From assembly GCA_030247885.1 (NCBI GenBank), contig JAPDRO010000018.1:62001-126000 (forward strand): a stretch of DNA of 64,000 nucleotides, read 5' to 3'. The stretch's first letter is position 1. Each line of letters starts with the position of its first letter. Both the position numbers and the translations under genes were made by a program. Shown here one piece after another: positions 12,134-60,400 of the stretch. Below the pieces are notes generated by a model that searched no databases, was not told the origin of the DNA, and saw only the letters and a list, made by a program, of their open reading frames with translations. This DNA comes from Taxawa tesnikishii (nom. ined.) (taxonomy: Eukaryota; Ascomycota; Dothideomycetes; Dothideales).

Positions 12134-15100
12134 ATGTCCGCTACAGCACCAGTGGATTCAGGAAGACAGCGGAAGCGCAAGAGGACGCACAAAGAGAAGG
12201 AGGAGTCGAAGAAGAGGAGGAGAGATAATGGTGCGAATCAGGAGACTGTCGCCATTGGAGGCTTCGGAAGCCACAAGACCACGACATTTCTCGAGAACAA
12301 CGCTACAACTAGTGCTCACACATTGCATAAAGTCCCTTCAGTCCAAGACGGAACTCCAACGCCATCGAATGCGGACAGCGAGATCCCATATGCGAAAAGG
12401 CACAGGGCAGAAAGGCGAAAGAAGAAAAAGGGAAATCTCTCCTAGCGCAGACTGAGCCTACAACACCTGCAACCCAGGAAAAATCGGAGCCGGAAGCTGT
12501 CTCGGTGTCCGAACAACAGCCTGGTTCTAAGCGCAAGCATGCGAAGCAGGAAACGCTCAAAAAGCTAGAAGAGGAGGATGTTGGACGCATATTAACCTCC
12601 GCAGCCAAAGACCCTGTTTCCTCGGCAAAGAACACAGATGGAGAGCCTGCTCTCACTGAAAGGACTCCCAAGTCGCGCAACAAGAGCAAGAAGGCGAGCC
12701 AGTCTGGCGCTACGCCGCAAAAGCCCTCAACCTTGGCAAGAGACACGTCGTCTTGGATTGTGACAGAGGCAAAAGCGGGCCGTTACATTGACCACGATCC
12801 CATATTCTCGTCAGATGAGCGGTTGGTAGACACGAATTGCTATGACGAACCCAGCTGACAATAGTAGGGTTCTGTTTGCCGCCAACACACGCGAAGTTCA
12901 AGTGCTATCAAACGAGACTTCAGGCGTCTTGCGCACGTTGCCTGCACCAGGAGATGACAGCGTTGCTGCATTCTCACTCTCAGCCGTTGATCCTGATCAT
13001 ATATACATTGCTTATGTATCTGGACATATCGAATGTCGGAACTGGACATCTGGAGCACTTGTTCGCAAGAGGCGTCACGTTCCTGGACAACCCGCTTCCG
13101 TTTCTGTCAGTCTCTCTCCGTCCCAGGAAAGTGATGTTGTATACACAATCTCTCAATCCGCCCACTCTTCACGCATACTCGCCGGAGATCGCGTGCTTTA
13201 TTCATCCAACGAAAGGTTGCACAGTTTGCATGCAGTGGGTCACTACATCGTAGCCGCCCTCCCAGGCAAAATTGTCATAGGCACGTCTCGAGCTTCGGAG
13301 GAGGACGGGAACGACGCTGTTGAATATTCATGGGCTGAAATCAACATCGGCTTGGACGCCACCTGCCTTGATGCTAGGTTGCATTCTAACAACCTTAACG
13401 CCGGAAAGACAAAGAAGAGCAGATCTGTGCCTACAGAAACTCTCTCCGTTGCGATTGGTACCAAGGAAGGTCAAATCCTGTTGTACGACAATCTGCTTTC
13501 TTTGCATCATTCTGTTGGTGATGGGGCGGCCGACGCCTCACTTACGCCGTCGGTTTTGCATTGGCACCGTGAAGCTGTCGGCTCCGTGAAATGGTCTCGA
13601 GATGGTATGCATCTGGCCTATCACATTAGGAAATTCAGACTGACGATCTTCAGGCAACTACCTCATCTCAGGCGGTACAGAGACGGTCCTAGTTATCTGG
13701 CAAATAGAAACAGGGAAGAAGCAGTTCTTGCCTCATCTCACCGCCGAAATTGAGAGGCTCACAGTATCGCCTCGCGGCTCATCCTACGCAGTACAGCTTG
13801 CGGACAATTCCGTGATGGTCCTATCGACTACCGAACTGAAGCCGACGGCGAACTTCCCTGGACTGCAGTCTTCCGTATTTCAGGGTAAGAAAGCAAGGGA
13901 TGAGGTTAGACGTCCTACTCAACCGGTCCTATTGCATCCCGTGCATAAAGATCATCTCTTGTTGTCCGTGCCTGCCTCATCTCTTCGATCAGCAACGGAC
14001 GTGCGGTCCAGATCGTTTCTCGAGGCCTATGACTTGGCAGCCGATCGACACATCGCGCGGCAGGCGCTCACTCGCAACAACGTGACTGATCTCAACAGAG
14101 GACCGGAGGGCAACAAGATTGCAGAGCCTGATGTCTCGATGTTGCAGATCAGCAAGGACGGACAATGGCTTGCGACCTCTGAAGAATGGACGCCTGCAAC
14201 ACCTGACGTGGAATTCCTGGCTGCGGATCGCGCTTCTGAGTCTGAAGAGTCCCGAGCAAGGCGCGAGGTCTACCTGAAAATCTGGCGTTGGAACGAGGAT
14301 AGAAAGCTCTGGATGTTGGAAACGCGCATTGACGGTCCCCACCAATCTGCAGTTGATGCACGACCCGGACGCATCCTTGCTTTGGCCACCGATCCTACTG
14401 AAACAGGCTTTGCCACTGTGGGTGAGGACGGCTGCGTGCGTATCTGGAAGCCAAAGACACGTCTGCGTAACGGCATTGTTGTACGTGGTACGAGATCTGA
14501 GGGACTGACTGACTGGTCCTGTCGGTTCACGATACAGCTGGAAAAGAGTGTCGAGGCTCCAGAGTCGCCAGAAACGGAAATGCAATCTGCGAATTCGCCT
14601 GTCGGCGCTTGCATAGCCTACTCCAACGACGGATCAGTACTTGCAGCCACCCAGGCCTTCCAAGAGCCTGGCGCTGGCTCTACCGTGCACTTCATCAATA
14701 CCGCCACTGGTGAGTTGATGGAGAGCCGAAGCGGTCTGTTCAGCGGAGTGATCAAAGCCTTGAGTTTCCTCGACCGTTACCTCGTCGTCCTATCTTCCAC
14801 AAACATCGGCGTCTGGGACATCGTCGATGATGCGCTGAAGTACAGCAGGGAACTGGAACCATCAACGGCCAGAACCGCAGGTACAGAGCTGCTCGCCGTG
14901 AGCCGCGATGAGGGCATCTTCGCCTTCACTACCCCTATTCAGTACAACAATCAGCCTGCAACGCGCCTGCACGTCTGCAGCCCGAGCTTGGCTAAACCCA
15001 TCACTACGCACCAGATCCCACAGGTCGTCACGGCACTCCTGAGCGCCGAAGGAAGGAGGGGTTTTACTATCCTAACCAACACCGCTGAGATTCGCACCTT

Positions 15101-15506
15101 GTCATCCAGAGCCTCTGTCCGAAAGGCCACCACGCAGCTTGCTGAAGTGGTTGTCACGACCACGGCGGCTGACGCTGAGCTCGCAGTCCAAGGAGCAGCA
15201 GACGAGGATGAGGACGTCGACATGGGCGATGTCGACGTCGATGCCAATGCCGATGACTCAATGTTGGTTGCCATCGAAGATGACAACGAGAGAGCGGTGG
15301 TCCGGCAGGAGCAACTCGCGCAAGTGTTCGACGTCGGACAGAGCTTTGCCTTGCCACCTGTCAAGGACATGTTCGACGCTGTCGTCGGGTTGTTTGGACG
15401 TAAGCCGGCGGATGGCGCGTACAGTCGTACTTCGGAGATGGAGCAGTCGAGCCTGAAGAACGCGAGATTCAACGTGGCGCTTGAGCAGTTGCCGTTTGTG
15501 TCTTGA
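12134..15506 (+). CDS. NAN1: Utp17/Nan1 (WDR75), WD40 subunit of the SSU processome
   Basis: Exons 12134-12821, 12868-13604 and 13654-15506 (introns of 46 and 49 nt) give about 1092 aa once one base is added in the A5 run at 12425-12429; as written, the frame stops at TAG 12443-12445. The N-terminus is a basic, Lys-rich nucleolar-type tail. WD40 repeats follow: SSDERVLFAANTREVQVLSN opens the propeller, and YLISGGTETVLVIWQIETGK (around 13660-13720) is the family hallmark that continues KQFLPHL. A second propeller and an acidic C-terminal stretch (about 15190-15290) follow. The role, from yeast Utp17 and human WDR75, is in the t-UTP/UtpA subcomplex, linking rDNA transcription to 18S rRNA processing in the nucleolus. 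It is longer than yeast Utp17 (896 aa), mostly in the tail. An upstream in-frame ATG/GTG (12095) is possible, but ATG 12134 is better placed. Confidence 0.92.
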
Positions 15507-25087: not shown

Positions 25088-25323
25088 CGGTCGTCAGCTC
25101 GGTTCGCTGGCGGAGGATGCATCACTATCGGCTCTTGAAAAAAAAAAAAGAAAAGAAACTCAGCATGAATTCCGGTAGAAGCGAAAGGTCTGGGAGTATG
25201 GGTTCAATCGAGTTCTTTTCTCAGCGAAAAAACTTTCTATTCATGACCGTCCGTGACAGCGTGCCCTCTTTCCTACTCTCATTACTCACACAACACCACA
25301 CCGGACTCGTACACGCTCTTCTC

Positions 25324-27296
25324 TTATGAGCTCTTTCCCCAACCCTTAACCGCATCATCGATGTCCTTCCTGTACTGCCTCTGCTGCTCGCACTGTTCCA
25401 GGAAGACCTTGTACTTGGCCTTCAACAGCTTCTTTTCATTCTCGTCCTCGCTCGGGTAGACTGCCTTTCCAGGCTTGCTCATGCGGTCCATGATATCCCA
25501 CAAGGGCTCACTCTTCCCATCCTTGTCGGTGCTGGCAGCCTTGGCACCGAGCATGGCGGCGCCGTGCACGACGGCCGCGTGCACGTAACGCGGGATCAGG
25601 ACGGGCATGTCGCACGCCGTCGCCATCAGCTTCATCAAAATGTCGTTCTGGCACTGCGAGCCGCTCATGAAGATGCTGGAGATGACGTGGCCGCTGTTGT
25701 TCATGCGCTCGATGATCTGCTGCGTCTGCAGCGCGATGAACTCCATGGTCGCGTAGTAGTAGACGGCCAGCGCGTCGAGCGACTTGTCGGACGAAATGCC
25801 GATGATGCTGCCCTTCATGTTCGGGTCCGCGATCGGGCTGCGGTTGCCGAACAGGTCGCCGTAGAAGAAGAAGTGCCGGCCCAGGTACGAGATGGCGGGC
25901 GCGTCGATCCTCTCGGCCATCTCCCGTAGGTGCTCGTTCAGGTAGTCGTAGATGTTGGTGTTGAACGTCTCGGCCACTGACAAAGCTTCGTTGAACGCGG
26001 GATGCGTCTCCAGCACGTGCTTGAGCAACTCGCCCGTCGCGGACTGTCCGCCTTCGGCCATCCAATAGTCGGGAATCAGCACGTCTCGGTACGGTCCCCA
26101 GACGCCGTCCACGAATACGGGCTTCTCCGACATGGCCAAGTGGCACGTCGAGGTTCCGGCCACGGCAGCGAGACGGGTGAAGGCTTGTGAGACGTGGTTC
26201 TTGGGCGCATCGCTGTCGAGGGCATCGCCCGGCAGACGCACCTTTGCGCCCACGGTGCCGATCCAGCCAGCATAAGCGTCAATGACTCCGGAGCCGACTG
26301 CTATGCCTGCCGGAAGACCCATATCGGCTGCCGCACGCTCGGAGAGGGTGCCAATCAGCTCACCGGCGGTGAGGTACTTGCCATTCTGTGAAAGTGGTCA
26401 GCTCAGGTGGTGCTCCGGAAATGAATCATGATGAAAAGGTATGTACCACCCCGTTGACGCCGCCCATGCGCTTGAAGTTGTCTTCGCACAGATCCTCGAG
26501 GCCAATCTCCTTCAAAAGTCCTCCTGCCAGCCCTTCACACTGCCATCAACGCCCACTGGCACGTATCCCTGCTTACAGACGACGCTGCAGAAGCTCCTCG
26601 TCTCGCTCCCGGTAGCAAGGTGGGTGAGAGCGTCGGTCAAATCGTAAAACTTGCAGCGCTCGAACAGCTCCTTGGGCATGTTGTTCTTCAGCCAGAGCAC
26701 CTTTGGAATCTCCATCTCGATGCTCATCTTGCCTCCGACGTAGCGCAGCAGGTTGTGGTCGGTCGCGTTGATCTTGTCCGTCTCCTTCTCCGGCCTGTGG
26801 TCCAGCCACAGGATCACGTTGCGGTCGTTGCCGTCGGCGTTGTCGAACTTGGGGCCGGTGACGGCGATGGGCTCGTCCGTGTCGTGCGAGAAGACGGCCA
26901 GGGAGCAGGTCGCGTCGAAGCCGATGCCGCGGACCGTGTTGCCGTCAATGTTGTGCTGGTCCATTGCACGTCGGATCGAGGAGCAGATGCATCGCCAGAT
27001 GTCTGTTGTGGATTGTTCCTGCGCGAACATTCGAGTCAACGTCTACAGTCGAGCACTGCCGGGTCGAGGGAGAGATAGCTTACATAGTATCCGGTCTGAG
27101 GCTGCCAGAGGCCAATGTTCTCGCTCGCCAATCCCACAATGTCTCCGTTACCGTTCATGATACAGGCTCTCGCGCTCCCGGTACCGACGTCGATGCCGAT
27201 GTAGTGGTCGACCTGCACATGCAGCTCGTTGTGCGGATCGACGGACATCTGGCGCGACTGCTGCCTGTACGGCTGGCGGAAGGGCATCGAAGTCAT
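25324..27296 (-). CDS. FGGY-family carbohydrate kinase (D-ribulokinase type, Ydr109c-like)
   Basis: Exons (minus) 27084-27296, 26447-27018 and 25324-26385 (introns of 65 and 61 nt) give 615 aa after adding one base at the A4 run 26514-26517; as written the frame hits TGA directly after KGWQEDF. The N-terminal ATPase motif is DHYIGIDVGTGSARACIMNG; the FGGY signature region follows WLDHRPEKETDKINATDHNL. Sugar-site and C-terminal motifs include GVIDAYAGWIGTVGAKVRLP, AAVAGTSTCHLAMSEKPVFV and SSIFMSGSQCQNDILMKLMA. In yeast Ydr109c and human FGGY the reaction is ATP-dependent phosphorylation of D-ribulose, viewed as metabolite repair; the cytosolic location here is inferred from the absence of a signal. 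The start is ATG 27296 (upstream GTG 27332 rejected). The donor of intron 2 may be GTACAT (chosen) or the GT three bases upstream. The break is most likely a sequencing deletion, because both sides are otherwise intact. Confidence 0.9.
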
Positions 27297-28087: not shown

Positions 28088-28191
28088 ACCTGCGTGCCCT
28101 GTGGCTGAACTCGACGCAAAGAGGCAGGCCGAGCTACCCCTCGCTTCGCTTTCGCTCTCGGTCTCGGCGAATCGTTGCGCCGCTTGCATGT

Positions 28192-28982: not shown

Positions 28983-29389
28983 AGACGCGGTAAATGCTAT
29001 GAAAACTTTCTTTGCATCACAATCAGTCCCACAGTATGAGCATGTCTTGAGGGTTGTGATGTCGCACGAATGGCTCTCCGGGAAAGATACTGAGACCTAT
29101 AAGGCGGTCCCTTCCTTGGAGTGCAACTGTTCCATTCGGCGGCGGGGTGGGCCTCCATCGACTGTGCGGGGCGGATTCAGGTAAAGGCGTGAATCGTAGA
29201 CGGTATCAGGCAAACATCTCTCAAACTCTTGATCGCGGTTCGCTGGTCACATGCGTCCTCTAGAATGTTGCCTTATGCCGCAACAGAGCGGCATCTCTCA
29301 CCTCTATCAACCCCCTACGCGCCACCGTTCCACCAATATCAGTCACGCCCTCACCAGTCGCGCCCCCGCAGGCGCAGTCCGCCGCCAGC
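28983..29389. other. Intergenic: EMC10 3' end and promoter of the gene at 29390
   Basis: 407 bp with no supported gene. Confidence 0.5.
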
Positions 29390-30966
29390 ATGTGCATCTG
29401 CCTATACGATGTCACGCTATACTCCTGCGGGCACACGCTGGCTCGCATCAACCAAACGGAGCCCTGCTCGCGCGCCGGCTCTCCAGGGCACCTTCGCTCC
29501 AACAACGTCTCCGGCACATCCGTCCTCCAGAATTCCACCAATCTAGTCCTAGATAACGTAAGATGTCCGGATCACGGCAGAAGAGCTCGCGTCGGTGGCC
29601 AACACCTGTTCGAGGTAGCGGTGGCGCTGGGCCGCCTACTGCAATCGTTCAAAAGGAGTGTGGAACAGCTCGCGCTGCTATACGCGACTTCGACCGGCGT
29701 TACGGTCCGCCGGCAGGAGCCGAGCCATACCGTCCTCACCACCATCAACCAGCTCGGAGGCAAGTGGGAGAGCAGCATGGACAAGATTGCTTTTTTGCGC
29801 CCGTGGTTGCGATGAATGCAGTGATTCAACGCATCCGGTATGCCGCAGACCGTCCTGAGCGCTGGCATGGAGAGACGATTCCGGGATTCGCGAGGGCGGT
29901 CAGTGCGAAGAATGATCTGGATGCGAGGTTTGGGACGCTTCGACGTCAGGTTGAAGACGCGAGGGTGCAGATGGGATTACAGAGACCTGCGTCGACTATC
30001 AATAAGGTCGCGCTTGATGTGGGAACACATACGGGAGCAACAAACGGAGCGAACGCGGCCGTAAGATCACCATTGTCGATAGAAGCGCACAAGCCTGTCT
30101 TTGCGGGTCCGGTAACGAAGGATCAGGCTCGTGACTCCGAGTTCACTCAGAGGCTGAGCTCGCCGTTGGATAGCCTGTGCGGAGACTTTGCGAAGCTCCA
30201 AACGCCATCTGGCACCGCAAGAGGTCAGCAGAAGCCGGTCGATAGGGCCGGTCTCAACATCTTCAACGTCCAACAGGCCATGTATGACCGCTCGGAGCTC
30301 AACCCTCATAGCGATAGCTTCCGGCCGTCCTGTCCTCAGGGCCAACACTTCACTCCTCCGCCCAAGGCGGAGCACCAACAACACGATCTCCAACGCAAGC
30401 TTGCTTCCCGGTCGCCTTCCAGTCTTGATCCTACCCCTGCCCAGATCCCTGCTCGCTCCAGCGCGGAGGTGAGGACAACATCACCGGCCCCCAGAAAGGC
30501 TCTCTCACAAGAACCGACGGTGTTTGAAACCCCTCGGCCACATACGGAGGGTTCACTCCATGAAAATCCTGATACCGAAAACCTCCGCACGATGGTATAC
30601 GGGCACGGCGCGCCCGACATCGATCCATTCAACGGTCGTCCCCAGCCGTATCATCCGCACGGTGTGAAAGGCGCTCCTTCAGGCTCACAGCGACTCCATT
30701 CGCTAGTTTATGGACGTCCGCCGGCATGGATGCGGAGTCCACATCACACGGAAGAGCGAGATGGTGCGACCGCCCCGCCGACCAATACGACGCCCGACTT
30801 CTTCCAGGCCCGCGCATGGGCCGCACTGGAGAGTCCGGGGCAGACGTGGTGCCAGCCCGACCATAAGGTGCGAGAATTGAAACGGATCTGGGACAGGCTG
30901 CCTTCGACGCAAGGAAGGCTCGGGAAGGATTTGATTGCTGAGGGCAGCCCGCCCCGCCCTCCTTGA
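29390..30966 (+). CDS. Orphan protein with Cys/His-rich head
   Basis: One continuous CDS of 525 aa is obtained by adding one base to the T6 run at 29791-29796. As written, ATG 29390 gives 141 aa ending PWLR and a second overlapping frame covers the rest. The head MCICLYDVTLYSCGHTLARI, then EPCSR and VRCPDHG, has a Cys/His spacing seen at the N-termini of many fungal zinc-binding proteins. A helical block follows (RLLQSFKRSVEQLALLY, INQLGGKWESSMDKIAF, IQRIRYAADRPERWHG). The remaining 350 residues are Pro/Ser/His-rich and disordered-looking, with repeated LVYG/MVYG motifs (LRTMVYGHGAPDIDPF, LHSLVYGRPPAWMR). I do not know the family. The paired frames and shared style argue for a single protein. 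Confidence 0.7.
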
Positions 30967-31450: not shown

Positions 31451-32781
31451 CTATCTTCTACCCAGATCAATGTTCAAGACTTCGACCATCTTATCGGATC
31501 CTTGACTTCCCTCCGTCTGACCCAACCCAAAGAACGGCTTCACACCAACCTCTACCGTCTCCTCGAACAACCCTTGCACGATACCACTCAGCGCATCACC
31601 AGTCTGCTTGAAATCCGGAAACGCGTTGATTTCCAGCAACCATGCATCCCCGTCCGCATCGACCAAAAAGTCGACTCCGTAAAGCTCAAACCCATTGGGA
31701 AGGGGCTGGAAATGCACCATCATGCTCCTGGCAGCCGCCTCGAAGACTTCTCCAGTGATCTCGCAGATCTGACCGAAGACACCCTCCCTCCAGTCCCGCG
31801 TCTTCAAGTTTGACAGCTCCGAAGGGAGAGACCAAAACGCGTGCACGCTGCCCTCGCGCTCGCCGCTTTGCAGGCAAGTATTGGTCAGGTGCGAACTCAA
31901 TTCTTCATTCGGATCGCCCGACTCCGAGGTCCAAGGTGCGGTATAGGCGCTGGCGGCAAACAGCGCCAGCATGGGCTTGTAAACGTAGACCTTGAGCGCG
32001 CCGACTGCGAGGACATACGTCCGGATGTGAAATTTGCGGCCTGCAGAAGGAAAGGGTTCCGGCAGAAGCAGTGGGGGATGGATGTACGGCTGCGCAATGA
32101 AATGTCGAAGTTGCGACGTGATGATGCCGTTCGAGTCGTCGTCCCGCTCGATCGCATCGTCTTCGCTGCCTCTGATCCGGGTGCCGTCTTCGTCGCCAGA
32201 GTGCTCGGCGTCGTCGTCGGAATCCGGAAGATCTTCTTCCCATTGCTCGAAGATGGCGGTGAGCTCCTCCTCGCTACTGAAGAGCCGGATTCCCTGCCCG
32301 CGATCACTCATGCCGGGCTTCAGGATCCACCATTCGCGCTCTGCTTCCGCCAGGCCCTCGTTTCGCTCGAAGCTTTCCCGTAACTCGAACGCTTCGACCA
32401 AGGCATCGTCCAGAAACTCTGCATAGTCGACTTCGAACTCGACGCTGGGCTTTACGTGTTTTTTAGCGTGCTGTTCGGATTCTTAGTCAACCAGTGGGCA
32501 ACGGTGGTGGAGAGGTAGTGTTTTCGGATCAGGGCTTTGCGGATAACGTAGGAGTTGATCAGATTCGTATCGGAACGAAGAGCAGCTCCCTCCAGATCTA
32601 ACGACTCGTATTGTCTCCATTGGAGTAGACGGGTGTCTGAGGAGGGTACTGCGGAAGTGGACTGGATCAACACAAGCAATTCGGATGGCAGGCGAGCTTT
32701 GAGTGCGGCGGTGATGAGTGGCTGGACGTAGTCGTCCTCGTAGTCAATCAGCGCATAAACCTTTGTGTTTGCGGTGGCCAT
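31451..32781 (-). CDS. Tubulin-tyrosine-ligase-like protein (Pby1/Ybr094w type)
   Basis: Single exon on the minus strand from ATG 32781; 443 aa after adding one base in the T6 run (A6 on the coding strand) at 32459-32464. As written the frame ends after about 109 codons. Start: MATANTKVYALIDYEDDYVQ. TTL domain motifs: WWILKPGMSDRGQGIRLFSS (ATP-binding lysine and glycine loop), FIAQPYIHPPLLL, GRKFHIRTYVLAVG, SSHLTNTCLQ and GVDFLVDADGDAWLLEINAF (metal/ATP-binding E-x-N). An acidic loop (about residues 185-215) interrupts the fold, as in fungal members. Mammalian TTL ligates tyrosine to tubulin; the yeast homologue Pby1 is linked to P-bodies and its substrate is unclear, so I do not claim tubulin modification. 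793 bp divergent from the gene at 33575. Confidence 0.88.
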
Positions 32782-39287: not shown

Positions 39288-40686
39288 ATGGGAGAAGTTG
39301 CAGGAGCTCTGTATGGGGTTGAGACGTTCATCGAAGGTGCTGTGGCATTAGCCAAGGGCATATATGACCCTACGTTGCCTTTAAAGGCAACCCTTGCCCC
39401 CATCTCTGACCTGAGCTTGCCGAGAGCCTATCATACCCTCTCGGTAGTCAAAGGCCGAGCCTACATCTTTGGTGGGAAAATCACCGGAGAGGATGGTGAA
39501 GAGGTATACCGGTTCCAAACTCCGCAGTACATTTTCCAGGAAGCTGACGGCTCTCCCAGACCCTCGCCGACAATGCGATGCACATTGTCATCCTCCCATC
39601 GTCGGGAGTCGAGTCCACAGACTACAAGAAGATAGAGCCAACAAAGAACACGCCTTCTCCTAGATTCGGCCATTCCGCTGCCGTAATAGATGATTGCATC
39701 TATGTATTCGGCGGGAGCAGCGCCTCAGAAGAAGACCCTTTGAGTGAAGATGGCTGTGTCTGGGTATTCAATACGACTACGGACAGCTGGTCTAGCCTGA
39801 AGCCTACAGCAGGAGGCGACAAGCCAGATGGCCGTATCTACCACGCTTCCACAGCTTCAGACCAACCTCAACCAGTATTTCATCGCACAGATGAAGGGAC
39901 AGCGCCTCAGTTGCCGCCCGACCCGGCCAAATACGTTCCTGAACCGCCAGCGCCAAACACGTACGGCACTGTTGTAGTGTACGGGGGACCTCTGGCAAAG
40001 GCGAGACTCTTTCGGACCTCTACGCTTTCGATGTCGCGTCGAAAACCTGGTCTGATCTGCCAGCCCCTCCGCCTGCGGCCAGCACCACGGCCAGTAGCCC
40101 AACTTTGGCAATGGTCGAGAGCCGCTTGTACACATTCTCTTCCGGACACACTCACTACCTGGATCTGCACAAAGCTCCCTTCAACGACAAAGACGGGAAC
40201 AGCGCTAGTGGCATCAAGCCTCTTGGACCATGGTCTCCAATCCCATCTGGCTTACACCCTGACAAGCCGGGCCCTGGCAACCGTACAGGAGCAACGCTTC
40301 TCCCAGTAACGACTGGCCAGGGACGTAATTACTTGCTACTCGTTGGCGGCGAGTCAAGCACCGGACAGAGCTCTCCATCCGCCCACAGTGACGTCTGGGC
40401 TCTGCAGCTTAATCCTGAAAAGGGCACGGCAGCGAGCGTCAAGGATTCGGTACGGACGGCCATCAAGATGTCTACTGATGAGGATGAGTGGGCTGAGCTG
40501 AAGTACTACAACACCGACGGGGTCGAGATTAAGGAAGGCCAATTTCAGAACGGTGTTGGCAAGCGCAAAGGATATGCTGCGGCCAAGGGCACCGAGGTCG
40601 ATGGATGCAGCGTGCTGGTTTGGGGTGGCTTCGGGGAGAGTGGGAAGGCTCTGGGAGACGGACTCATGATTACGGTCGAACGATGA
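39288..40686 (+). CDS. Kelch-repeat protein
   Basis: Exons 39288-39503 and 39560-40686 (56-nt intron, GTATAC, GCTGAC, CCCAG) give 447 aa after adding one base to the G5 run at 39983-39987. With it the frame reads VYGGTSGKGETLSDLYAFDV, an ordinary kelch blade; without it the frame is lost. Kelch units are LPRAYHTLSVVKGRAYIFGG, SPRFGHSAAVIDDCIYVFGG, GRNYLLLVGGESS with SDVWALQL, and SVLVWGGFGESGKALGDGLM at the end. It is a beta-propeller scaffold; no catalytic domain is visible and I cannot name the partner. A short amphipathic head (GALYGVETFIEGAVALAKGI) precedes the propeller. 370 bp upstream of the ADCK2-type gene on the same strand. Confidence 0.85.
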
Positions 40687-41056: not shown

Positions 41057-43331
41057 ATGCGAACCACGTTCCTCCTCGCCCAAACATGTCTCAGGCGAGG
41101 AGCACAGCAGTCGAGTCGACACACCTTCCGCCATGGTGCGCGAGCCTTTACATCGACGCGCGCGAACCACCGAAGTGACTTCTTCCACAATGCCAGGACA
41201 TTCTTCCGGGCGCCTCCGCCGCCTGTCAGGGAGGGACGGCGTGCCTCGCCGCAGCCGCACTGTCACCAGCGGCCTTCATACAGCTGAGCGAAGAGGACAA
41301 TGGCGACGAGAAGACAGGAGAAGAACACATGCTGGAGGCATCAAGGGCAGAATTGGAGGAGTACGTGCCTGAGTCATTGCGAGGATCTAAGACAGTACGG
41401 AGGAGCATTTGGAGGTTCGTGACCGCGTACATCGTCGAACCTATCGCGACCGGTCTACGGTTCTTGCACTTGGTTATCATATTCGTACCGGTTATAGCGG
41501 CTGTGCCGGTGATATGGCTCGGTTCGAGACAGAAGGACAGAGATAATGAGCGCAGCGGCACGCTGTGGTGGTACGGCTTCTTGGTGCGCTCGATGGAAAG
41601 GGCTGGCGCTGCTTTCATCAAGGTAGGGAACTACAATCGGGAGATCTGTCCTGGATACTGACGGCTGTTGTAGCTGGGACAATGGGCAGCATCAAGGACA
41701 GACATCTTCCCGACCGAGATGTGTAACATAATGTCGACTCTGCATTCAAACGCTCCCGCACATTCGCTCCGTGTCACAAAACGAACGATCGAGAAGGCCT
41801 TTGGAATGCATTTCGACGACATCTTTGAAGAATTCCAGGAAACGCCGTTGGGTGTCGGTGCCATAGCACAGGTTTACAAAGCCAAGCTAAAGCCAGATCT
41901 CGCGGTTTCAGAGGATCCCGACCTGAAGCAACAACCACAGACTTTGCGTGCTACAGTCAGGAGGAGTGTGGATAGTGCTCTCAAGAGCACGCCGCAGAGG
42001 GTACCCTCCAGCTACGTTGCTATCAAGGTCCTTCACCCCAACATCGAGAAGATTGTGCGGAGGGATTTGAAGATCATGGGATTCTTCGCCGCGATAATAA
42101 ACGCGATACCGACCATGGAATGGCTGTCATTCCCTGACGAGGTGAACCAATTTGCAGAGATGATGCGTCTGCAGCTCGACTTGCGTATCGAAGCGGCCAA
42201 CCTCACCATCTTCCGGAAACACTTCCTCAACCGGACCACCGCCTGGTTCCCCTACCCGTACACCCAGTACACGACACGCCAGGTCCTCGTTGAAGAGTTC
42301 GCGCATGGCGTCCCGCTCGAGCACTTCCTCCAAAACGGCGGCGGAGTCTTCCAGAAGGAAATAGCCGATGAAGGACTCGATGCGTTCTTGCACATGCTTC
42401 TAATCGACAACTTCATCCATGCAGACCTGCATCCTGGAAATATCATGGTGCGCTTCTACCAACCTGTGCGCATGGACGTCGGTGGGAGCCTACCCACTTT
42501 CCACTACCGCGAAAAGCCAGACCCCAAGTCCTCCAAGGACGTCACCGACGACGTGCTACAGCGTCTCCAACCCTGTCGGCACGACAAGAAGAGATGGCTC
42601 GCCACCCTCGAAGAGATTGACCAGCAGGGCTACCGGCCGCAACTCATCTTCATCGACACGGGTCTCGTGACCGAACTGAACAACACCAACCGCCGCAACT
42701 TCCTCGACCTGTTCAAAGCCATCGCGGAATTCGACGGCTACCGTGCGGGCAACCTGATGACGGAGCGCTGCCGCCAGCCGAGCGCGGTCATCGACAAAGA
42801 CGTCTTCGCCCTCCGCATGCAGCACCTGGTGCTCGGCGTCAAGAGCCGCACCTTCGCGCTCGGAAACATCAAGATTGGCGATATCCTGAACGAGGTGCTG
42901 AGCATGGTGCGCCAGCACCACGTCAGGATGGAGGGCGACTTCATCAACGTCGTGCTGAGCATCCTGCTCCTCGAAGGCATCGGCCGCAGCTTGGACCCCA
43001 ACCTCGATCTCTTTTCTGGGTAAGTTGTAACGCGGGCGGGTGGTGGTACCACCCCTTCCCCCCCCCCCCCCCCCCCTCCTCCGCCTCTTTTGCGCGGCGG
43101 CCCTTTGATCCAATCTTTCCAACTGTTCGGCGGCTAACTGAGAACCCCACACACAGCGCGCTTCCGATCCTGAGACAGCTGGGTGCACAGGGCGGCACGA
43201 GCATGCTCCGTAGCGGCGACTTGTCCATGGTCAAGGTCTGGGCCGGCCTCGAGGCGAGGAAATTCCTGCAGGCGAGCATCGAGAGCGTGGAGGCGTGCGT
43301 CAAGTACGATCAGCTGTCGCCCAATGTCTAG
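41057..43331 (+). CDS. CQD1: UbiB/ABC1 atypical kinase, ADCK2/Cqd1 (Ypl109c) type
   Basis: Exons 41057-41622, 41674-43019 and 43157-43331; 695 aa after adding one base in the G runs at 41229-41235. The N-terminus is a mitochondrial presequence (MRTTFLLAQTCLRRGAQQSS, basic, ends before RAFTSTR). A membrane segment (LHLVIIFVPVIAAVPVIWLG) precedes the UbiB signature KxGQ in AAFIKLGQWAASRTDIFPTE. Kinase-like motifs follow: GVGAIAQVYKAKL, VAIKVLHPNIEK, catalytic NFIHADLHPGNIMV and metal-binding LIFIDTGLV. In yeast Cqd1 is an inner-membrane protein facing the intermembrane space that influences coenzyme Q distribution and phospholipids; human ADCK2 is the relative. Between HADLHPGN and the DTG motif there is a family-typical insertion. 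The last intron (137 nt) contains a run of 19 C. The frame break lies between the presequence and AAAALSPAAFIQLSEED. Confidence 0.9.
43058..43076. repeat. C19 homopolymer in an intron
   Basis: Nineteen consecutive C, within the last intron of the ADCK2-type gene. Its true length is doubtful given the homopolymer losses elsewhere in this sequence. Confidence 0.8.
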
Positions 43332-44003: not shown

Positions 44004-47000
44004 CTAGAACCCCGGACTAGCCATGGCCCCCAGACTGCCGAACCTGGGTCCCAGAGCGGGCATGCTGTTTCCGGGCATCGGGCTTCCGATCTCGCCCACG
44101 TGCGTCGGCGCGCTCGGCGTTGCCGCGTCCGGCTCGAACTTGACCGCGAACACGCCCTCTCCGCCCTGGTGCCGCACGTGCAGCAGACCACCGCCGTTCT
44201 GCGCATCGCCTTCCGTCTCGCAGATGTCCTCAATCTCCTTGAGAGTGGGGGAGCGTCCAGGGCTGCGAGCGAGCGACTGACATCCATCTGGCGCAACAGG
44301 GCGTGGATGTCGTGGTAGTTGTCACTGCTGTTCAGGTTGGTTTTGGTCGCGTTGAGCTGCTTGCACGCGTCGCAGACGGCGCGGCGGATGGCGAGGGGTC
44401 GGTTGGCGTTGGATGGACGAGTGGGCCCGCCTAGAGGTCCGAAGGCGTTTGCTGGAGGCCATCCGGGAGTGTTGAGGCCGCTGCCCCAGCTCTGAGGGCC
44501 GCTGAGACCGGGCGGTCCGAATGTCATGCTGGGAGAGTTCCAGCTGCTGCTCGGGTTGCCAAAGGAGTCCATGCGTGGTTGTCCTGGTGGATACATGGGT
44601 GAGCCAAAGCCGATGGGTCTGGACATTCCTGGAGGGACGACAGTGCTCTGTCGACGAGGTTCCACAGCGCTGAGTGGTTCTGGCTCAGCATCGTCATTGA
44701 GCGCACTGCTGCCGAGGTGCTTGGTAAGAGCGTCGGTATCGGGATCGCCGGACTGCTTTCGCTCCTGGCTGCCTTCATGTGGCTTGACGCTGGAAGGCCG
44801 TTGGATAGGTCTCGGAGGGGTCCAATCGGCTGTGCTGGGAAAGAGGGATTGACAGTCTCCAGGCCTGACTTATCTGAGGCAGAGTGCTGTCTGGAATGAG
44901 AGGGCATCGTATCCCGGATAACGCCAAATCCTGGCGTCACGCCTGGCGGGCCTACAGGAGGCATCTGCTGCGGAAATCCTGGCGGTGCGTCCATCGAGAA
45001 CCCACGTCCATGTGGCAACAAGCCGAGCCCGTTCATGCCAGGTGGTGGCCCACGCATGCCGTTCGAGGGGTGGAATGGACCACCGAACTGTCCACCGATC
45101 GGACCTTGCTGAGGATACATCGGCATCTGTTGGCGCTGGTTCATAGCATGCATCATCGGAGCTGACGGATTGGGAAAACTGGAAAACCCAACAGGCGGAA
45201 AGCCACCACCGAATCCATGATTGTGGTGAGGTGGATGTGGCATGCCAGGCGGAGGAGGGTGAATGTGATTCATGTTGATTGGTGATGTGGGCTGCGGGTG
45301 ATGCACAATCGGAGGTTGCTGGTTCTGCGGTTTCTGCAATATCGTCTTAGGCGTAACGGCTGGTTGCTGCGAACCGGGAGCACCAGCGCCGATTGGAGAT
45401 GTGGTTTTACTGGCCCCGGTAGAAACGTTAGGAGTTTTGGGAGAGGTGCCATGGGAATGCTGTCGTGAGCCCTGTCTTGGCCTGGCAGGAGTCGGTGCCT
45501 TTGGTAGCGCGGGTGTCGCGACTGACACATGTGGAGAGGAAAAACTCGAAGAACTCTGCTTTGGATGCAATCCAGGAGGTACTGCCACCATTCCAGCTTG
45601 TGACGGGCGCTTGACGATTTGAGGAGGTTGAGGAGGTTGTTGCTGCTCCTTTTTTCGCGTTCCATGGCCTCCTTTTCCGCTTTCGCTTTGGCATCCCTTT
45701 GCTTCTTCTCTTTTTCCTCCTGGACTTTCTTCTCTCTAGCTTCTTTCTCCCGTACCTGCTTTTCCTCGAGTTCTTTTTCCGTGCTTCTTCTCGCTGGCGC
45801 TTCTCCTGAGCTTTCTGCTCACGGGCTTTCCGCTCGGCCTCCTGTTGACGCTCCTTTTCCTCGTTCTGCCTCTTCAGCCGCTCAGCTTCCTTGCGCTGCC
45901 TCTCTTCCTCCTGCGCTTTTCGCTCGGCTTCCTTCTTCTTGCGCTGTTCCTCCTTCTTGCGCCGTTGCTCTTCCAACTTCTTCTCCTCGGCGGCTTTGGC
46001 AGCAGCTTCCTCGGCGGCCTTTTCTGCCTCACGCTTGGCCTTCTCCTCCGCTTTGGCTTGCTTCTGAGCGAGCTTCTTGCTCTTTTTCTTCTCGGCATCC
46101 CTAGCCTTCTTCGCTTCACGCTGCGCATCCAGCCTAGACTCATCTTCGAGCTCCTCCAATAGCTTCTGCTGTCTCTCTGCGGCGACCTTCTCTCGATATG
46201 CCGTCAAAACCCGCTGTTCAAACATCCGTGCAGCGAATATCTGAAACATTCTCCGTCCCTCCCGCATCCTATCATCCTCTGTCAAGCCACTCTGCGAATG
46301 GTTAGCCTGCGACACAGTACCTGAAGGCATGTGATCAGAGGGTACCATCTCATCCTCTTCTTCCTCGTCGTCGTACTCATCCTGTGAATCGTACTCTTCC
46401 TCATCCTCGTCATACTCGTCGTCCTCCAGCTCGTGACCACCATTAGCGTAACCGTGCGACGGTTGTGACGCAGCATATTCTGCTTCTTGTTCTCGCCGCA
46501 TTCTGCGTTCCGCTAGTTGTTCCATCATCTCGATGAATTTTTTGCCGTCGTTTTTGAGCAGATCATCCGCGACGGTTAGTATGCCGCCTGAATCACTGTT
46601 CAGCCTTCCGAACCAGTATGCCACCGTCTCTTGTAGGCAAGACCTACCTTTCACAGTGAGACTGTTGCCGAAGTTGAAGAAATCCACCCCCATGTTGACA
46701 GGTATCTCCTCGTCGGGCTCCTCCTCATCGCTGTACAGCTCATCATCGTCTTCATCATCGTCCTCTTCATCGCTGTACTCGTCCTCCTCGTCGCTGAATT
46801 CTGCCTCACCCTCGTCCAGAATCTCATGAACCCTACTCGTACGATGCTGCGGATTACCCGTACTGAGTGGTAACGGAACCGCAGAATTCGGCCGCATGTG
46901 GTTGGTGGGCTGGGGGAAGCCTCGGGGTGGCGGTATGATAGAATCTCCAGGCTCTCCGGGATGTTGGTGGTTGGCGTACTGCTCCAGCTCCTCATAGTAA

Positions 47001-48737: not shown

Positions 48738-49717
48738 ATGGCACCTGAAGATAACAGTGTGATGCGGAGGTGAGTGTGTGCGATCTTTTATATTCCCAAT
48801 CTTTCAATCAATTCTCCGCTTACTGCGCCGTGGATCTGCAAGGGTGCTGTTCACGCAGATTACTGTGAATAACCACCTCGTTCCTTTCTTTCTGCATCTC
48901 ATACCTTCAGACTGTCGTGCGACAACACAGATTTCATTTGACATCACAGTATCCGCGCGTTTTGTTCTAGCTTTGGCCAAAGCCCGCCAATCCCCCACAC
49001 TTCTCTGCACATCATACCACATTCGTCACGAGGAACACAGGTCCAGCTTCCGCACATGGCTTCCCCCTGCAGATCTTGACTATGTTTTCTATGCCTTACT
49101 AACTCATACTGTTCTAATCATTGAGACCGCGAAGCTGACATTACTTTCCAGGAAGCTTGTCATTATCGGCGATGGTGCATGCGGCAAGACAAGTTTGCTC
49201 AGCGTATTCACACTGGGCTATTTCCCACACGATATGTGCCCACGGTTTTCGAGAATTATGTGACAGACTGCCGCGTGGATGGCAAGTCTGTCCAACTCGC
49301 TCTCTGGGATACCGCCGGCCAAGAAGACTACGAACGTTTACGACCGCTAGCATATTCTCAAGCACACGTTATCTTGATCGGCTTCTCCGTCGACTCGGCA
49401 GACTCGCTGGAAAACGTAAAGCACAAGTGGGCGGAAGAGGCCCAGGAGCGGTGTCCTGGAGTGCCTATCATCCTCGTCGGACTCAAAAGGATCTCCGGGA
49501 CGATCCCCTGGCGCAAGAGGAGATGCGGAAACGGAGCCAAAGATTTACGGCTCGGAAAGCCGGCGAGGACATGAGAGAGGAGATCGGAGCGCGGAAGTAC
49601 CTCGAATGCAGCAGCTTGACAGGTGACGGCGTGGATGACGTGTTCGAGGCTGCCACGAGAGCAGCGCTCCTGGCCGTCGACAAGCGGGATCCTGCCGGAT
49701 GCTGCGTCATTTTGTGA
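48738..49717 (+). CDS. RHO2: Rho-family GTPase, Rho2 type
   Basis: Exons 48738-48769 and 49152-49717 with a long 382-nt first intron give 199 aa after adding two bases (C3 at 49224-49226 and A4 at 49485-49488). [11 protein letters not shown] joins [20 protein letters not shown] (P-loop). Switch I is [20 protein letters not shown] and switch [22 protein letters not shown]. The guanine-specificity motif becomes [13 protein letters not shown] once the second base is added. [20 protein letters not shown] and a C-terminal CCVIL, a CaaX box ending in Leu and so probably geranylgeranylated, follow. The C-terminal block resembles fission yeast Rho2 more than Rho1, Rho3, Rho4 or Cdc42. Rho2 signals at the plasma membrane to cell-wall synthesis and the cell-integrity MAPK route. 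Both breaks fall in catalytic motifs of a conserved gene and are therefore probably errors. Confidence 0.92.
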
Positions 49718-52311: not shown

Positions 52312-52417
52312 AGGATGTTCATGCTTGTAGTAATGTATTGAGTTAAACTGCTGATTCGCTTCATTCCTCATCAAATGAACAATTCTTGTGTCCATTGCGG
52401 TTGGTGCTGCTGGTCTT

Positions 52418-53809
52418 TCAACACGTGCGTAGATTCGTGGTGAGGTTCCGAAGCAACAATTGCCCTATCTCGAGACTGTCGGAGCCGGTATCTGCTATAG
52501 CAAGTTCTTCCAAAAATGCTTGAATCGACGCATCGTTAGCACAATGGCGATCAAGAAAGGTCCATATCGCTCGACGCGTCAAAGAAGCTCGGGCAGACAT
52601 CCACCACAAGGCAGCCGGCTCGACCATAGAATACCAAATTGCCATCAGCAGCAGAGCACGGGGGTCGCGATTCTTGAGCAAGGCTTCGAACTCCGGTTCC
52701 ATTGTGTTGGCGAAGGCCAGATACCGAAACGACCCTTCGAATTCACTCGTTTCGCCAAACAGCGTTGACAAAAGCCGCACAGCTGAGTGATATGGATTGT
52801 TGGTTGCGTTTGAAGATGAGTTGAGATCGTACAATTTGACAAATGCCGACGCGATGCCTTCGATACCTGGTTGTGGGGAGGCAAGCCTAAGCAACGCTGG
52901 TGTTTGTGGAATTTGTTCAGCTGGAACATGCTGTTCTGGCGATGGTTTCCGAACATGCTCCAGAGCGCTCGTAGTCCCTTTTGCATCTCCAGCCAGTCAA
53001 GGTCCGAAGTTGACGCCGGGCAAAGAGGCCATACATGCTCCGGGTCGTCTGTCTCGACAGCGAACAGCGCTACCCAGCTCATTGTCCCAGCTGTCATCCA
53101 CAACGCGTCTCGATTGCAGGTCTGCAGGTCCTGCGACAGCTCGTAGTTAAAGAGGCGTAGAGCTGTAGCCCAGTGAAAGCACTCGGACGGAGTGCGCCTC
53201 ATGTGACCTTGCAGAATTAAGTGTCGGTCGTGCATGGCAGTGAGGGTCAGCGCAACATGCAGGAGACACGGATACTGGGCAAGGCTGTCAGCAATGAACC
53301 TCGGAATTAGCTGCGACACTCACACTCCCCATTAATCTGAGCGATTCTTTCCGAAATGTTTCCTGCACTATAGGAGGGGTAGATGCAACCAGCGTCCTGT
53401 TCAGAAACCTGGATAAGCGCGCCAGGTTCACCATGTCTAATTGGTATGGGTTGATCTCGACGGCGTTTTTGTTGTATGCCAGACGCAACGCTTCGTTCAT
53501 GCTGTGCATGATGGCCTCGTTGTTCGAGCATTTCTGAGGATACAGCGGTGCGGAGGTTGCCGCTCGTTCGTATGAGCTCTGCAAAGGAGTCGCTTGATGC
53601 GAGTAATTGCACACAAGACCATTCCTTTGGCAACCGTGACAATTCGGCTTCGTCTCATCGCACTGTCGTTGCCGACACTCAGCACGAACTGCGAGGCGAG
53701 ATGGATTCGCATGAATGACGCACCCTCACTCTACGCAGCTTGCAGTTACAGCATCCTGCTCTTGATTTTTGTGTGCTCTTCTGACACGTCCCTGTTGCGA
53801 CGAAGACAT
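52418..53809 (-). CDS. Zn2Cys6 fungal transcription factor
   Basis: Exons (minus) 53724-53809, 53324-53662 and 52418-53274 (introns of 61 and 49 nt) give 427 aa after adding two bases: one in the T5 run at 53766-53770 and one between about 52895 and 52975. Start MSSSQQGRVRRAHKKSRAG. The binuclear zinc cluster GCCNCKLRRVRCDETKPNC plus HGCQRNGLVCNY has exact CX2CX6C spacing, but only when exon 1 is corrected and the first intron (GTGCGT...CGACAG) is removed. The middle homology region has YPCLLHVALTLTAMHDRHLI and DLDWLEMQKGLRALW; the C-terminal part has AFVKLYDLNSSSNATNNPYH and DPRALLLMAIWYSMVEPAAL, the layout of C6 regulators with a fungal-specific domain of the sterol-uptake-control type. It should be a nuclear DNA-binding regulator; targets unknown. 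The second missing base is not in an obvious long homopolymer. Confidence 0.85.
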
Positions 53810-54307: not shown

Positions 54308-56530
54308 ATGAGTTTATCGTTGGTTTTTCGCAGGGTCAATTCCATCTTCCGGTCCTCTGATCAACGCTTGGTCATTAAAGCGGGACAATATCGCATCCGG
54401 AACGGAATGGCCGAACTATCGCAATCCCCAGTAAATCTGGATGCGCAGCCAAAGGAAGGCCAGCTCGTAACTCACGAGGGCACCACCTATAATACGATCA
54501 AGGAAGGACTGGCGTACATTCTGGTTCCGCCGAACGCGCGTACATCGACAGATCCGCAAGCAAAGAACAACAAGGACAAGGATGACACCGAGCAAGCGCA
54601 GAGCGTCTTCTACAACCCAATCCAGCAGTTTAATCGAGATCTTAGCGTTCTTGCTATCAAGGCATTTGGCGAAGACAGGTGTGAGAGAGCAAAGAAAAGC
54701 TCGAGCAAAGAGCTCAGTTGAATAAGAAGAAAAACGAAAGGAAGAAGAACAGGCAGGAGAACCAGGAAACGGACGGTCAAAACGGCGCAAAGAGGAGGAA
54801 GGGTAACGATGGTTCTGTGATTGCTACAGGAAACAGTTCTGAATCCGCCACAGAAAATGTGGCCGCGAATGCGCAACCTGCTGAGTCTACGGCATCTGAG
54901 GCACAATCACAGCAGGATGCGACCGTGCCAAGTTCAAATGAGAACGGACCAGAGGGTGTAGCACAGAACGGCAGGACAGAGACAAAGGTCAATGATACAC
55001 AAGAACAAGCGGCTCCCCGACAGCCCAAATTCCGCATCCTCGACGCGCTCTCAGCTAGTGGACTACGCGCGCTACGCTATGCGCACGAAATTCCCTTTGC
55101 AAGCTCCATCACTGCAAACGACATGTCACCAGCTGCAGTAGAGTCCATTGCCCTCAACGTGGCTTACAACAAGCTTTCACTCAAAATCGTTCCCTCTGCG
55201 GCCAATGCGATCGCTCATATGTACACGGCGGCCTTTGCACAGCCCGGTCAGCTTCCGGCAACGGACCCGGCAGCCCCAGGGAAGTACGATGTGATCGACT
55301 TAGACCCTTACGGAACAGCTGTGCCATTCTTGGACGCTGCTGTTCAATCTATCAGTGACGGCGGACTTCTCTGTGTAACTTGCACTGATGCCGGAGTGTT
55401 CGCGTCATGTGGATATCTGGAGAAGACTTACTCCCTTTACGGTGGATTGCCAATCAAGGGTCCGCATTCGCACGAGGCTGGGTTACGCCTCATCCTTCAC
55501 TCTATTGCCACGACAGCGGCCAAGTACGGGGTCGCGATCGAGCCGTTGCTTTCTCTCTCCATCGACTTCTATGCACGTGTCTTTGTGAGAGTCAGAAAGA
55601 GCCCGGCAGAAGTGAAGTTTCTGGCCGGGAAGATAATGCTTGTGCACCAATGCGATCATGGTTGCGGCGCTTGGAGCTTCGAGACGTTGGCACGCAACCT
55701 AGAGCAGAAAGGAAAGAAGGACACCATGTACTACAAGCATGTCGCGGGACAAGGCACCGTCGATCAACTATGCACGCATTGCGGGTTCAAGACGCACGTG
55801 GCTGGACCCATGTGGGCCGGTCCGATACACAATCCATGGTTTATCGAACGAATTCTGAAAGGGCTGAAGGATCTTGACAAGTCGACATACGGCACGACGG
55901 AACGTATAGAAGGTATGCTTACCAGTGCTCTTGACGAGTTGGAAGTGATTACTGCATTTGACGGCAGTAAGTCCAAGGGTGAAAAGGCAGAAACCATCCC
56001 TTCGGTTGATGCGCACGTCACCGACCCGCATCCTTTTTCTTCATTCCTTCGGCGCTCGCAAAAGTCATTCACTGCCAGGCGCCTGCGGAGGCAGCGATCA
56101 AGGGTGCTCTTCGCCATGCTGGATACCGTGCTACACGCAGTCATACTAAGCCCGGGACCATCAAGACGGACGCTTCGTGGGATGCTATCTGGACAATCAT
56201 GTGCGAATGGGTGAGACAGAAGGCTCCTTTGAGGGAGGGTGCCGTCAAGGAAACGGCGGCGGGCTATCGTATCCTAGCCAAGATGAGGAAAAAGGATCAA
56301 GGCGAAGCTACAGAAGCGGGGGTGGAAGAAGCAGCAAACGGGGAGAAGGAGAGGAGAAAGGAAATGCAGAAGAAGAGAGTGCAAAGAACAAGGACGGCCT
56401 GCCCTCGCTGAAGAAGGTTGTGTTCGACGAGGTGCTGGGGAAAGACAAGCTAGGAAAGAGGCTGCTTCGGTACCAGATCAACCCGAGGGACAACTGGGGT
56501 CCGATGAGCAGGGCAAAGGGAAGAGAGTAG
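54308..56530 (+). CDS. TRM1: Trm1, tRNA (guanine26-N2)-dimethyltransferase
   Basis: Single exon, 741 aa after adding three bases: A4 at 54695-54698, T5 at 56034-56038 and one between 56345 and 56382. The basic head (MSLSLVFRRVNSIFRSSDQR) looks like a mitochondrial presequence; an internal ATG (codon 34, MAELSQSP) could give a nuclear form, the dual-targeting known for yeast Trm1. Core: THEGTTYNTIKEGLAYILVP, VFYNPIQQFNRDLSVLAIKA, a charged low-complexity insert (about 54700-55020), the SAM-binding RILDALSASGLRALRYAHEI, catalytic YDVIDLDPYGTAVPFLDAAV, and the zinc-binding pairs HQCDHGCGAW and LCTHCGFKTHVAGPMWAGPI. The end KLGKRLLRYQINPRDNWGPM is typical. It makes m2,2G26 in cytosolic and mitochondrial tRNAs. 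The large low-complexity insert is longer than in yeast (570 aa total). Confidence 0.93.
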
Positions 56531-57416: not shown

Positions 57417-60400
57417 ATGGATACTGCTGCTCTAAGAGGCCGCATTCAGGCTACCCTTGACGCCAATGCAGACGTTCGCCGTCAGGCCGAGATTGACTTG
57501 CGAAATGTACCGCTATACTGAGTCACTAACCGTGACATGCTAAGCAGTGCTAACCCGACAACAGGCAGAGAGCAACCCAGGCTTCTCGGATGCATTGCTG
57601 AACATTCTCGAGGCCGACCAGGATACTGGAGTCAAGCTGTCGAGCGCCGTCTACCTTAAGAACCGTATCACTAAGGGCTGGGAGTCTAGTGAAGGTTCTC
57701 CGAACGTCAAGTTGCTACCCGACACCGAGAAAGCGACGATCAAGAACCGCATTGTACCCATTCTTGCACACTCCATATCCCAGGTCCGCGCGCAACTTAC
57801 TACCATTCTTCAGAAGATATTACACTACGACTTCCCTGAGAAGTGGCCCGACTTTTGCAGCTCACCATCCAGCTGTTGAACGCCCAGGATGCAGGGTCAG
57901 TCTTTGCAGGACTGCAGTGTCTGTTGGCGATATGTCGGGTGTACAGGTACAAGATGGGGAAAACAGGTCGGACTTTGACAAGATCGTCGAGATGACATTC
58001 CCACAACTGCTCAGCATCGGAAACAACTTGGTCAACGAGGAGAGCTTGGAGGCAGGAGAGATGCTTAGGACCGTGTTGAAAGCATACAAGCACGCCGTCT
58101 ACTTTGAACTGCCAGTGCCGCTCCGGGACCACCGGGCCATGGTGGGTTGGTGCACTCTATTCCTCACGGTTGTCGCAAAGCAGCCACCGGCGAACTCGAT
58201 GCCTGATGACTTGGAGGACCGGGAAACAAACCACTGGTGGAAGTGCAAGAAATGGTCGTATGTCAATCTCAACAGACTGTTTGTGCGATACGGAAACCCG
58301 CAAAACTTGTCCAAGGGCTCTGATGAAGATTACTCCGAGGTGGCAAAGACCTTCATCAAGGATTTCGCGCCGGAGATCCTCAAGGGATATTTGCAGCAGA
58401 TTGAGAAGTGGGTGGGCAAGCAGACTTGGCTCAGCAAGCCTTGCCTGTCCTACACTCTGGCCTTCTTGGACGAGTGCGTCAAGCCAAAGTCCATGTGGGA
58501 CCACCTGAAGCCACACATGCAGATTTTGATCGAACACCTCTTGTTCCCGGTTCTGTGCCAGTCTGATGAAGACATCGAGCTGTTCGAGACCGATCCGTCT
58601 GAATACCTCCACCGCAAGCTCAACTTCTACGAGGAAGTTTCAGCACCCGATGTCGCTGCTACGAATTTCCTGGTCACTCTCACCAAGGCACGTCGTAAGC
58701 AGACGTTCGCCGTTCTGAACTTTGTCAACGACATCGTCAACAAGTACGAGTCTGCCCCTGACGACCAGAAGAACCCAAGAGAGAAGGAAGGCGCTCTGCG
58801 CATGATTGGTACCTTGTCTAGTGTGATTCTAGGCAAGAAGAGTCCTATCGCCGATCAGGTGGAATATTTCTTCGTGCGACACGTCTTCCCGGAGTTCCGC
58901 AGTCCTCATGGTTTCCTTCGTGCCAGGGCCTGTGACACTTTAGAAAAGTTCGAGGCACTGGACTTCAAGGATCCCAACAACCTGATGATCATCTACCGCA
59001 ATATTCTGGACTCCATGGCTGATTCAGAACTGCCGGTCCGGGTTGAAGCCGCTCTCGCTTTGCAGCCACTGATCAGACACGACGTAATACGCATCTCGAT
59101 GCAGCAGAATATTCCGCAAATCATGCAACAGCTGCTGAAGCTTGCAAACGAGGTTGATGTGGATGCCTTGGCGAATGTCATGGAGGACTTCGTTGAAGTT
59201 TTCGCCGCTGAACTCACCCCTTTGCTGTTGCCCTCAGTGAGCAACTGCGCGACACTTATATCAGAATTGTGAGGGAGCTGATCGAGCGCAATTCCACAAA
59301 GGAAGGCGAACCTGAATATGGTGATTTCTTAGATGACAAGAGCATAACAGCGCTTGGTGTCCTTCAGACCATCGGCACTTTGATCCTTACCCTTGAAAGC
59401 ACTCCCGACGTTCTGGCACACTTAGAGCAGATTCTCATGCCCGTCATCGAGCTGACTCTGCAAAACAAGCTCTACGGTGAGAACTCAACACACGCTTTGG
59501 AAAGAGGTCAGTGGACTGACAACTACTAGATCTCTACAATGAAATTTTCGAGATCATTGACAGTTGCACTTTCGCGGCGAAGCGTATCTCACCCACGATG
59601 TGGACTGCTTTCGAGCTGATCCAGCAGACCTTCCAGTCCGGTGCGGAGCTGTACCTGGAGGACATGCTGCCTGCGCTCGAGAACTTTGTCAACTACGGTA
59701 ACGAAGCGCTCGTCCACAACCCACAATACCTCGAGGCGATCGTGGACATGGTGCGCACCATTTTCAAGGACGACAAGGTCGGCGGTGTTGACCGTATCTG
59801 CGGGTGCAAGCTCGCCGAAACCGTCATGCTCAGCCTGCGGGGCCACATTGACAACTACATCCCAGAGTTCATCACGCTTGCCATGACGGTACTGAACAAC
59901 GACGAACTCAAGGTCAAGTCATACAGAATACACCTGATGGAGATGGTGATTAACGCCATCTACTACAACTCAGCGCTCAGTCTGCAAGTGCTGGAGTCGC
60001 ATGGCTGGACCAACAAGTTCTTCAGTGTTTGGTTCTCCAGCATCGACAGCTTTACTCGTGTGCATGACAAGAAACTTTCCATTGCAGCTATCACCTCGCT
60101 TCTGGTACTGCCAGGCTCCTCAATCCCCGTCAGTGTACAACCCGGCTGGCCCAGGCTTCTTCAGGGTCTCGTTCGCCTGTTCCAAACACTGCCAGCGGCC
60201 ATGAAGAACCGTGAAGAGGCTACCAAAGAAGACGACTTTGGCCTCAGCGGTGACTATGACGATGAGGAGGAGGACGAATGGGAAGGCGAGGTTGACTGGA
60301 CAGCGGAAGAGGCTGACGAGAGCGAGGATATTAAGGACGAGAGCGCAACCTACCTTGAATTCCTCAGCCAGCAGGTAAGCTTAACGCCGTGCTCTCACCA

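Follow-up and report, generated by a model that had tools for sequence, protein, structure and literature searches.

The window analysed here is a stretch of 64,000 nucleotides (G000:C10:62001-126000) from the genome of Taxawa tesnikishii JES_119 (nom. ined.; Dothideales), a fungus of desert crust whose hybrid Nanopore/Illumina assembly is described in the available sections of PMC11195213. The genome as searched comprises 29,367,862 bases in 34 contigs; as published, it is given as 38 scaffolds and 29,383,553 bp, with a longest scaffold of 2,828,030 bp (PMC11195213, Table 2). In the window lie eleven conserved genes whose reading frames are broken: NAN1/Utp17-like, an FGGY kinase, gene 29390, a TTL-like gene, a kelch-repeat gene, an ADCK2-type (ABC1) kinase, NST1, RHO2, a Zn2Cys6 gene, TRM1 and an NMD5-like importin. 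An earlier examination of the letters, hereafter the sequence-only reading, had placed in them 20 losses of a single base, all of the same sign. We find that homologous proteins place 12 of these sites as losses, that the loss bias extends through the genome and that a second assembly of this species runs uninterrupted through seven of the sites. It is highly probable (about 0.97) that these sites mark errors in the consensus of the deposited assembly caused by Nanopore homopolymer under-calling, that is, a sequencing artefact and not biology.

Frame changes in the window

Homologous proteins (designated by P numbers) were aligned with a purpose-written protein-to-DNA aligner that allows introns and, with the same penalty for either, a missing or an extra base. 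Homologs of seven of the eleven genes placed 12 of the 20 sites: three each in TRM1 and the importin gene, two in RHO2 and one each in the FGGY kinase, ADCK2-type and TTL-like genes and gene 29390 (Table 1). Under these symmetric penalties, the aligner called 39 frame changes, each of them a missing base and none a gain. Each of four homologs required three losses in TRM1, as did each of four in the importin gene; one loss was required by each of four homologs of the ADCK2-type gene, each of two of the FGGY kinase and each of three, from other species, of the TTL-like gene, and two losses by each of two homologs of RHO2 and by the single same-species homolog of gene 29390, P0241. For gene 29390, a single loss had been proposed; P0241 bears out the T6 site and adds a second loss near 29,353, which lies upstream of the start apparently used. 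Either losses fall outside coding sequence too, or gene 29390 starts further upstream. The 12 homolog-placed sites and this extra loss are referred to below as the located sites (n = 13).

A single Pfam domain resumes in another frame within TRM1, RHO2 and the kelch-repeat gene. In the FGGY kinase gene, FGGY_N lies upstream of the frame change and FGGY_C downstream of it, and the TTL domain is found in the downstream frame of the TTL-like gene. For NAN1, NST1, the kelch-repeat gene and the Zn2Cys6 gene, the best 120 of 2437 matches included no suitable protein external to this assembly. The kelch site is supported by its domain, a PDB search with this gene having returned weak matches only, and the NAN1 site and the four NST1 sites by open frames, with the same sign throughout. 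In NAN1, the frame of a later exon matches Utp17 of PDB entry 5oql, and the frame directly after the site matches weakly (E 0.42). The proposed tally of 20 same-sign losses is uncertain in the Zn2Cys6 gene, for which two had been counted: one loss looks clean, and the second junction is a +1-equivalent change. The related proposal that no site needs a base removed agrees with every homolog call and may not extend to this junction, where a gain is possible.

Table 1. Positions of the frame changes in the window. Run letters are those of the plus strand where so stated; fractions give the homologs that call the change; HMM, hidden Markov model.
Gene or site	Position	Strand	Description and evidence
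NAN1/Utp17-like	12425..12429	+	A5 run, one base short; open frames only; run letters checked
FGGY kinase	26513..26517	-	A4 run (plus-strand letters), one base short; P0134, P0175 (2/2)
Gene 29390	29791..29796	+	T6 run, one base short; read through by same-species P0241 (other assembly)
TTL-like	32459..32464	-	T6 run (plus-strand letters), one base short; 3/3, other species
Kelch-repeat gene	39983..39987	+	G5 run, one base short; kelch domains split over two frames; three-frame view
ADCK2-type (ABC1) kinase	41229..41231	+	GGG, one base short; P0129, P0153, P0165, P0148 (4/4)
NST1, first	interval 45431..45818	-	One base short; open-frame overlap; HMM near 45,770 at loose penalty only
NST1, second	interval 45273..45735	-	One base short; open-frame overlap
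NST1, third	interval 44527..44869	-	One base short; open-frame overlap; HMM near 44,858 at loose penalty only
NST1, fourth	~44242..44243	-	One base short; HMM and open frames
RHO2, first	49221..49229	+	One base short; P0348, P0357 (2/2); Pfam Ras pieces in different frames
RHO2, second	49485..49488	+	A4 run, one base short; 2/2
Zn2Cys6	~52871..52890	-	One base short; open frames only; clean-looking loss
Zn2Cys6, second junction	53310..53370	-	+1-equivalent change, explicable by two losses, by one gain or by an intron
TRM1	54695..54698	+	A4 run, one base short; 4/4 including same-species P0002; the other three vary by at most 6 nt in place
TRM1	56034..56038	+	T5 run, one base short; 4/4 including P0002
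TRM1	56340..56343	+	G4 run, one base short; 4/4 including P0002; the other three vary by at most 12 nt in place
Importin (NMD5-like), first	57853..57857	+	T4 run, one base short; 4/4 including same-species P0121
Importin, second	57955..57964	+	G4/A4, one base short; 4/4 including P0121
Importin, third	59217..59223	+	C4T3, one base short; 4/4 including P0121

With one position per site, taken from one homolog, a run of at least four identical bases lies within 6 nt of 10 of the 12 homolog-located sites, against 10.2% of the coding positions of the window (P ~7e-9); these runs are 4-6 bases long. This agrees with the earlier observation that the sites sit mostly at short runs, and all five runs then named by coordinate are present in the sequence. 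The last intron of the ADCK2-type gene holds a much longer run, C19.

Further evidence comes from the second assembly of the species, whose source tag, lgn, we take to denote the Logan assemblies of SRA data and which was presumably built from accurate short reads. At the protein level, it runs without a break through 7 of the 20 sites: P0002 reads through the three sites of TRM1, P0121 through the three of the importin gene and P0241 through the one of gene 29390. Aligned codons agree with those of the window in 738 of 738 cases for P0002, 657 of 658 for P0121 (the exception being the start codon) and 565 of 565 for P0241. The contigs carrying P0002 and P0121 are listed at 31,822 bp each, and that carrying P0241 measures 14,960 bp. 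Since P0121 begins and ends inside introns, it is a direct translation of genomic DNA.

Loss bias across the genome

The loss bias is genome-wide. We ran an unsupervised, self-trained HMM, with equal costs for gains and losses, on the window and on a sample of twenty 10-kb stretches drawn from eight other contigs (264 kb in all). Over 117,231 decoded coding bases, its calls comprised 26 losses and 2 gains, with the same density in the 64-kb window (7 losses, no gains) and in the other 200 kb (19 losses, 2 gains). The HMM has no preference for losses, because planted losses and gains were recovered about alike from synthetic genes (223/240 and 230/240, respectively), and 240 unaltered genes yielded two false losses and two false gains. 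Its sensitivity is lower on real genes, at about 6 of the 20 sites of the sequence-only reading, and we rejected it as sole evidence for individual genes, where it is weak. At the working penalty, six of its seven calls in the window fall at or near those sites (one of them 143 nt off). The seventh, a loss at 2,876, is in a gene absent from the earlier list. With a looser penalty, applied region by region, a gain appeared in TRM1 near 56,520, which we discarded as unsupported by the four TRM1 homologs; in the second NST1 interval, the loose penalty gave a gain near 45,619, whereas open frames suggest a loss.

A domain-pair test compared the frames of adjacent matches of one domain elsewhere in the genome (Ras, TCP1, Pkinase, HSP70, tRNA-synt_1, AA_permease and UCH). 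All eight pairs that left no room for an intron, distributed over eight contigs, were one base short, with no gains. The pairs separated by an intron-sized gap divided into 28 short, 27 extra and 25 in the same frame, as expected of a fair test. We put aside as ambiguous two further pairs, both short, whose excess was 30-40 nt. The test at first took 73 of the 141 Pkinase rows, chosen by eye for their neighbours; when repeated with all 141, it returned the same three Pkinase pairs. For the Sugar transporter family, 9 of 323 candidates were scored, and those nine rows were excluded from the pair test.

As a separate observation, like-sized Pkinase matches covering the same profile range recur in both orientations on contig C2 (e.g. 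413883+, 810272- and 878577-; 446460+ and 965342-), a pattern suggestive of mis-assembly, large duplications or a mobile element.

Deposited gene models

The top protein match of the TRM1 piece of the window is the NCBI protein P0001 of T. tesnikishii (100% identity), in which 79 residues near the C terminus stand in for 102 residues of the intact P0002. The models of P0242, P0123, P0122 and P0001 bridge or avoid the losses by short or odd introns or by a moved start, in the intervals 32450-32502, 41197-41673, 57843-57893, 59239-59266 and 56211-56277. In the deposited importin, TTL-like and ADCK2-type models, the losses are skipped by false short introns or a moved start. P0242, used as a fourth query for the TTL-like gene, aligned without any frame change, since its gene model lays a 53-bp intron across the site. 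The deposited proteins of T. tesnikishii are wrong at such sites, and this annotation will give distorted intron statistics. Any use of the proteome, of the intron statistics or of apparent gene losses calls for prior correction of the assembly with the Illumina reads reported in PMC11195213.

Origin of the losses and comparison with known systems

According to the available sections of PMC11195213, the JES_119 genome was assembled with the MaSuRCA hybrid method from Nanopore reads at 194.58x, base-called with Guppy 3.4.4, and Illumina reads at 25.38x; Table 2 lists BUSCO completeness as 97.4% for Illumina and as 92.9% for Nanopore, in separate rows. The searched text of that paper contains no word beginning with pilon, medaka, homopolymer, frameshift or error, and "polish" occurs once, concerning Exonerate. 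A literature search by species name, with most subscription journals outside its coverage, returned this description paper alone, the searched text of which does not mention base losses. We propose that the Nanopore reads (~195x, Guppy 3.4.4) would under-count runs of identical bases and that the MaSuRCA hybrid assembly, with 25x Illumina, would have left many such losses standing, a lack of short-read polishing probably being the faulty step. The genes would then be intact in the organism, as ordinary fungal genes, and the remaining sites probably share the cause of the seven cleared by the second assembly. Under-calling, which the sequence-only reading had already considered the simplest explanation, is supported by the sign of the changes (39/39 with homologs, 26:2 with the HMM, 8:0 with domains), by the runs, by the spread at the same density, by the Nanopore-based method, by the lower BUSCO completeness of the Nanopore row and, above all, by the uninterrupted frames of the second assembly (7/20).

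Several observations weigh against under-calling. The affected runs are short (3-6 bases), yet longer ones survive in the window (C19 at 43058-43076, A15 at 16032-16046 and A12 at 25138-25149), whereas Nanopore sequencing is expected to fail more at long runs. Two of the 28 HMM calls are gains (in L012 and L019, outside the window and seen by the HMM only); they may be genuine gains, assembly errors of the opposite kind or false calls. Nor is one-sidedness universal, since losses dominate in Taxawa, whereas over-prediction of run length is the commoner error in the Nanopore assemblies of Drechmeria coniospora, as described in the consulted part of PMC7500977. Furthermore, the second assembly is known from proteins alone, which a frameshift-correcting gene caller could in principle explain. 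Finally, 4 of the 13 located sites have an in-frame X XXY YYZ heptamer close by, compared with 20 of 4132 codons (0.5%), an excess that is mild when measured against run-matched sites (4 versus 1.2 expected, P ~0.016).

These heptamers bear on programmed -1 ribosomal frameshifting, genome-wide or gene-specific, which changes the frame in the same direction as the Taxawa sites do. Unlike in that system, the sites here share no heptamer. An X XXY YYZ sequence is missing at 9 of 13, so that they are not slippery as a class, and such a sequence amounts to two adjoining runs, at which losing a base is in any case likely. The distance from the site to the first stop in the old frame varies from -1 to 191 nt. 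Moreover, the four heptamer sites are those of the TTL-like gene, RHO2 (first change), the importin gene (third change) and gene 29390 (29,790), and the last two are uninterrupted in the second assembly; indeed, at all 7 of the 20 sites that this assembly covers, the frame change is, at the protein level, not in the organism's DNA. The sequence-only reading was right that no heptamer is shared and that several sites are not slippery, although slippery-like sequence near 4 of 13 sites is not rare, and its dismissal of genome-wide frameshifting is upheld. We regard such frameshifting as extremely improbable, and we grant as little credit to real -1 recoding at one or two sites uncovered by the second assembly (for example, A AAA AAC in the TTL-like gene, with a stop 8 nt on, or T TTC CCA in RHO2).

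True mutations, either real deletions in the strain or decayed copies with intact genes elsewhere, have nothing in their favour beyond the broken frames. They are at odds with the conservation of the genes, the one-sided sign and the equal density elsewhere (7 HMM calls in the 64 kb of the window, 21 in 200 kb of eight other contigs). In addition, a 100-bp TRM1 probe matched only itself in this genome, so the broken TRM1 is no extra copy, and the second assembly is uninterrupted at seven sites with codons otherwise identical; we consider this origin very hard to credit. Unrecognised introns could likewise shift the frame. Deposited models do bridge sites with short introns (in P0242, 53 bp, 32,502-32,450), and at the Zn2Cys6 junction (53,310-53,370), a 58-bp GTGCAG...CAG stretch would serve as one. 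However, the aligner, which could place introns at will, placed them elsewhere (three in the importin gene, two in the ADCK2-type gene and two in the FGGY kinase gene, among others), whereas at the 12 sites no homolog led it to use one, apart from the deposited TTL-like model P0242, and P0002, P0121 and P0241 are continuous across their sites. Introns are thus a most unlikely cause of the frame changes.

The probable homopolymer errors of the assembly have counterparts in other Nanopore assemblies. In bacterial ones, the errors are likewise mainly homopolymer-associated indels (96% in Flye assemblies), according to the consulted part of PMC11232133, albeit in bacterial genomes, unlike that of Taxawa. 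A fungal counterpart is D. coniospora, in which, as in Taxawa, mostly homopolymer errors shift the frames of conserved fungal genes; there, BUSCO can still be passed by genes whose introns are improbably short, and short-read polishing fixed the run lengths (PMC7500977, in the part consulted).

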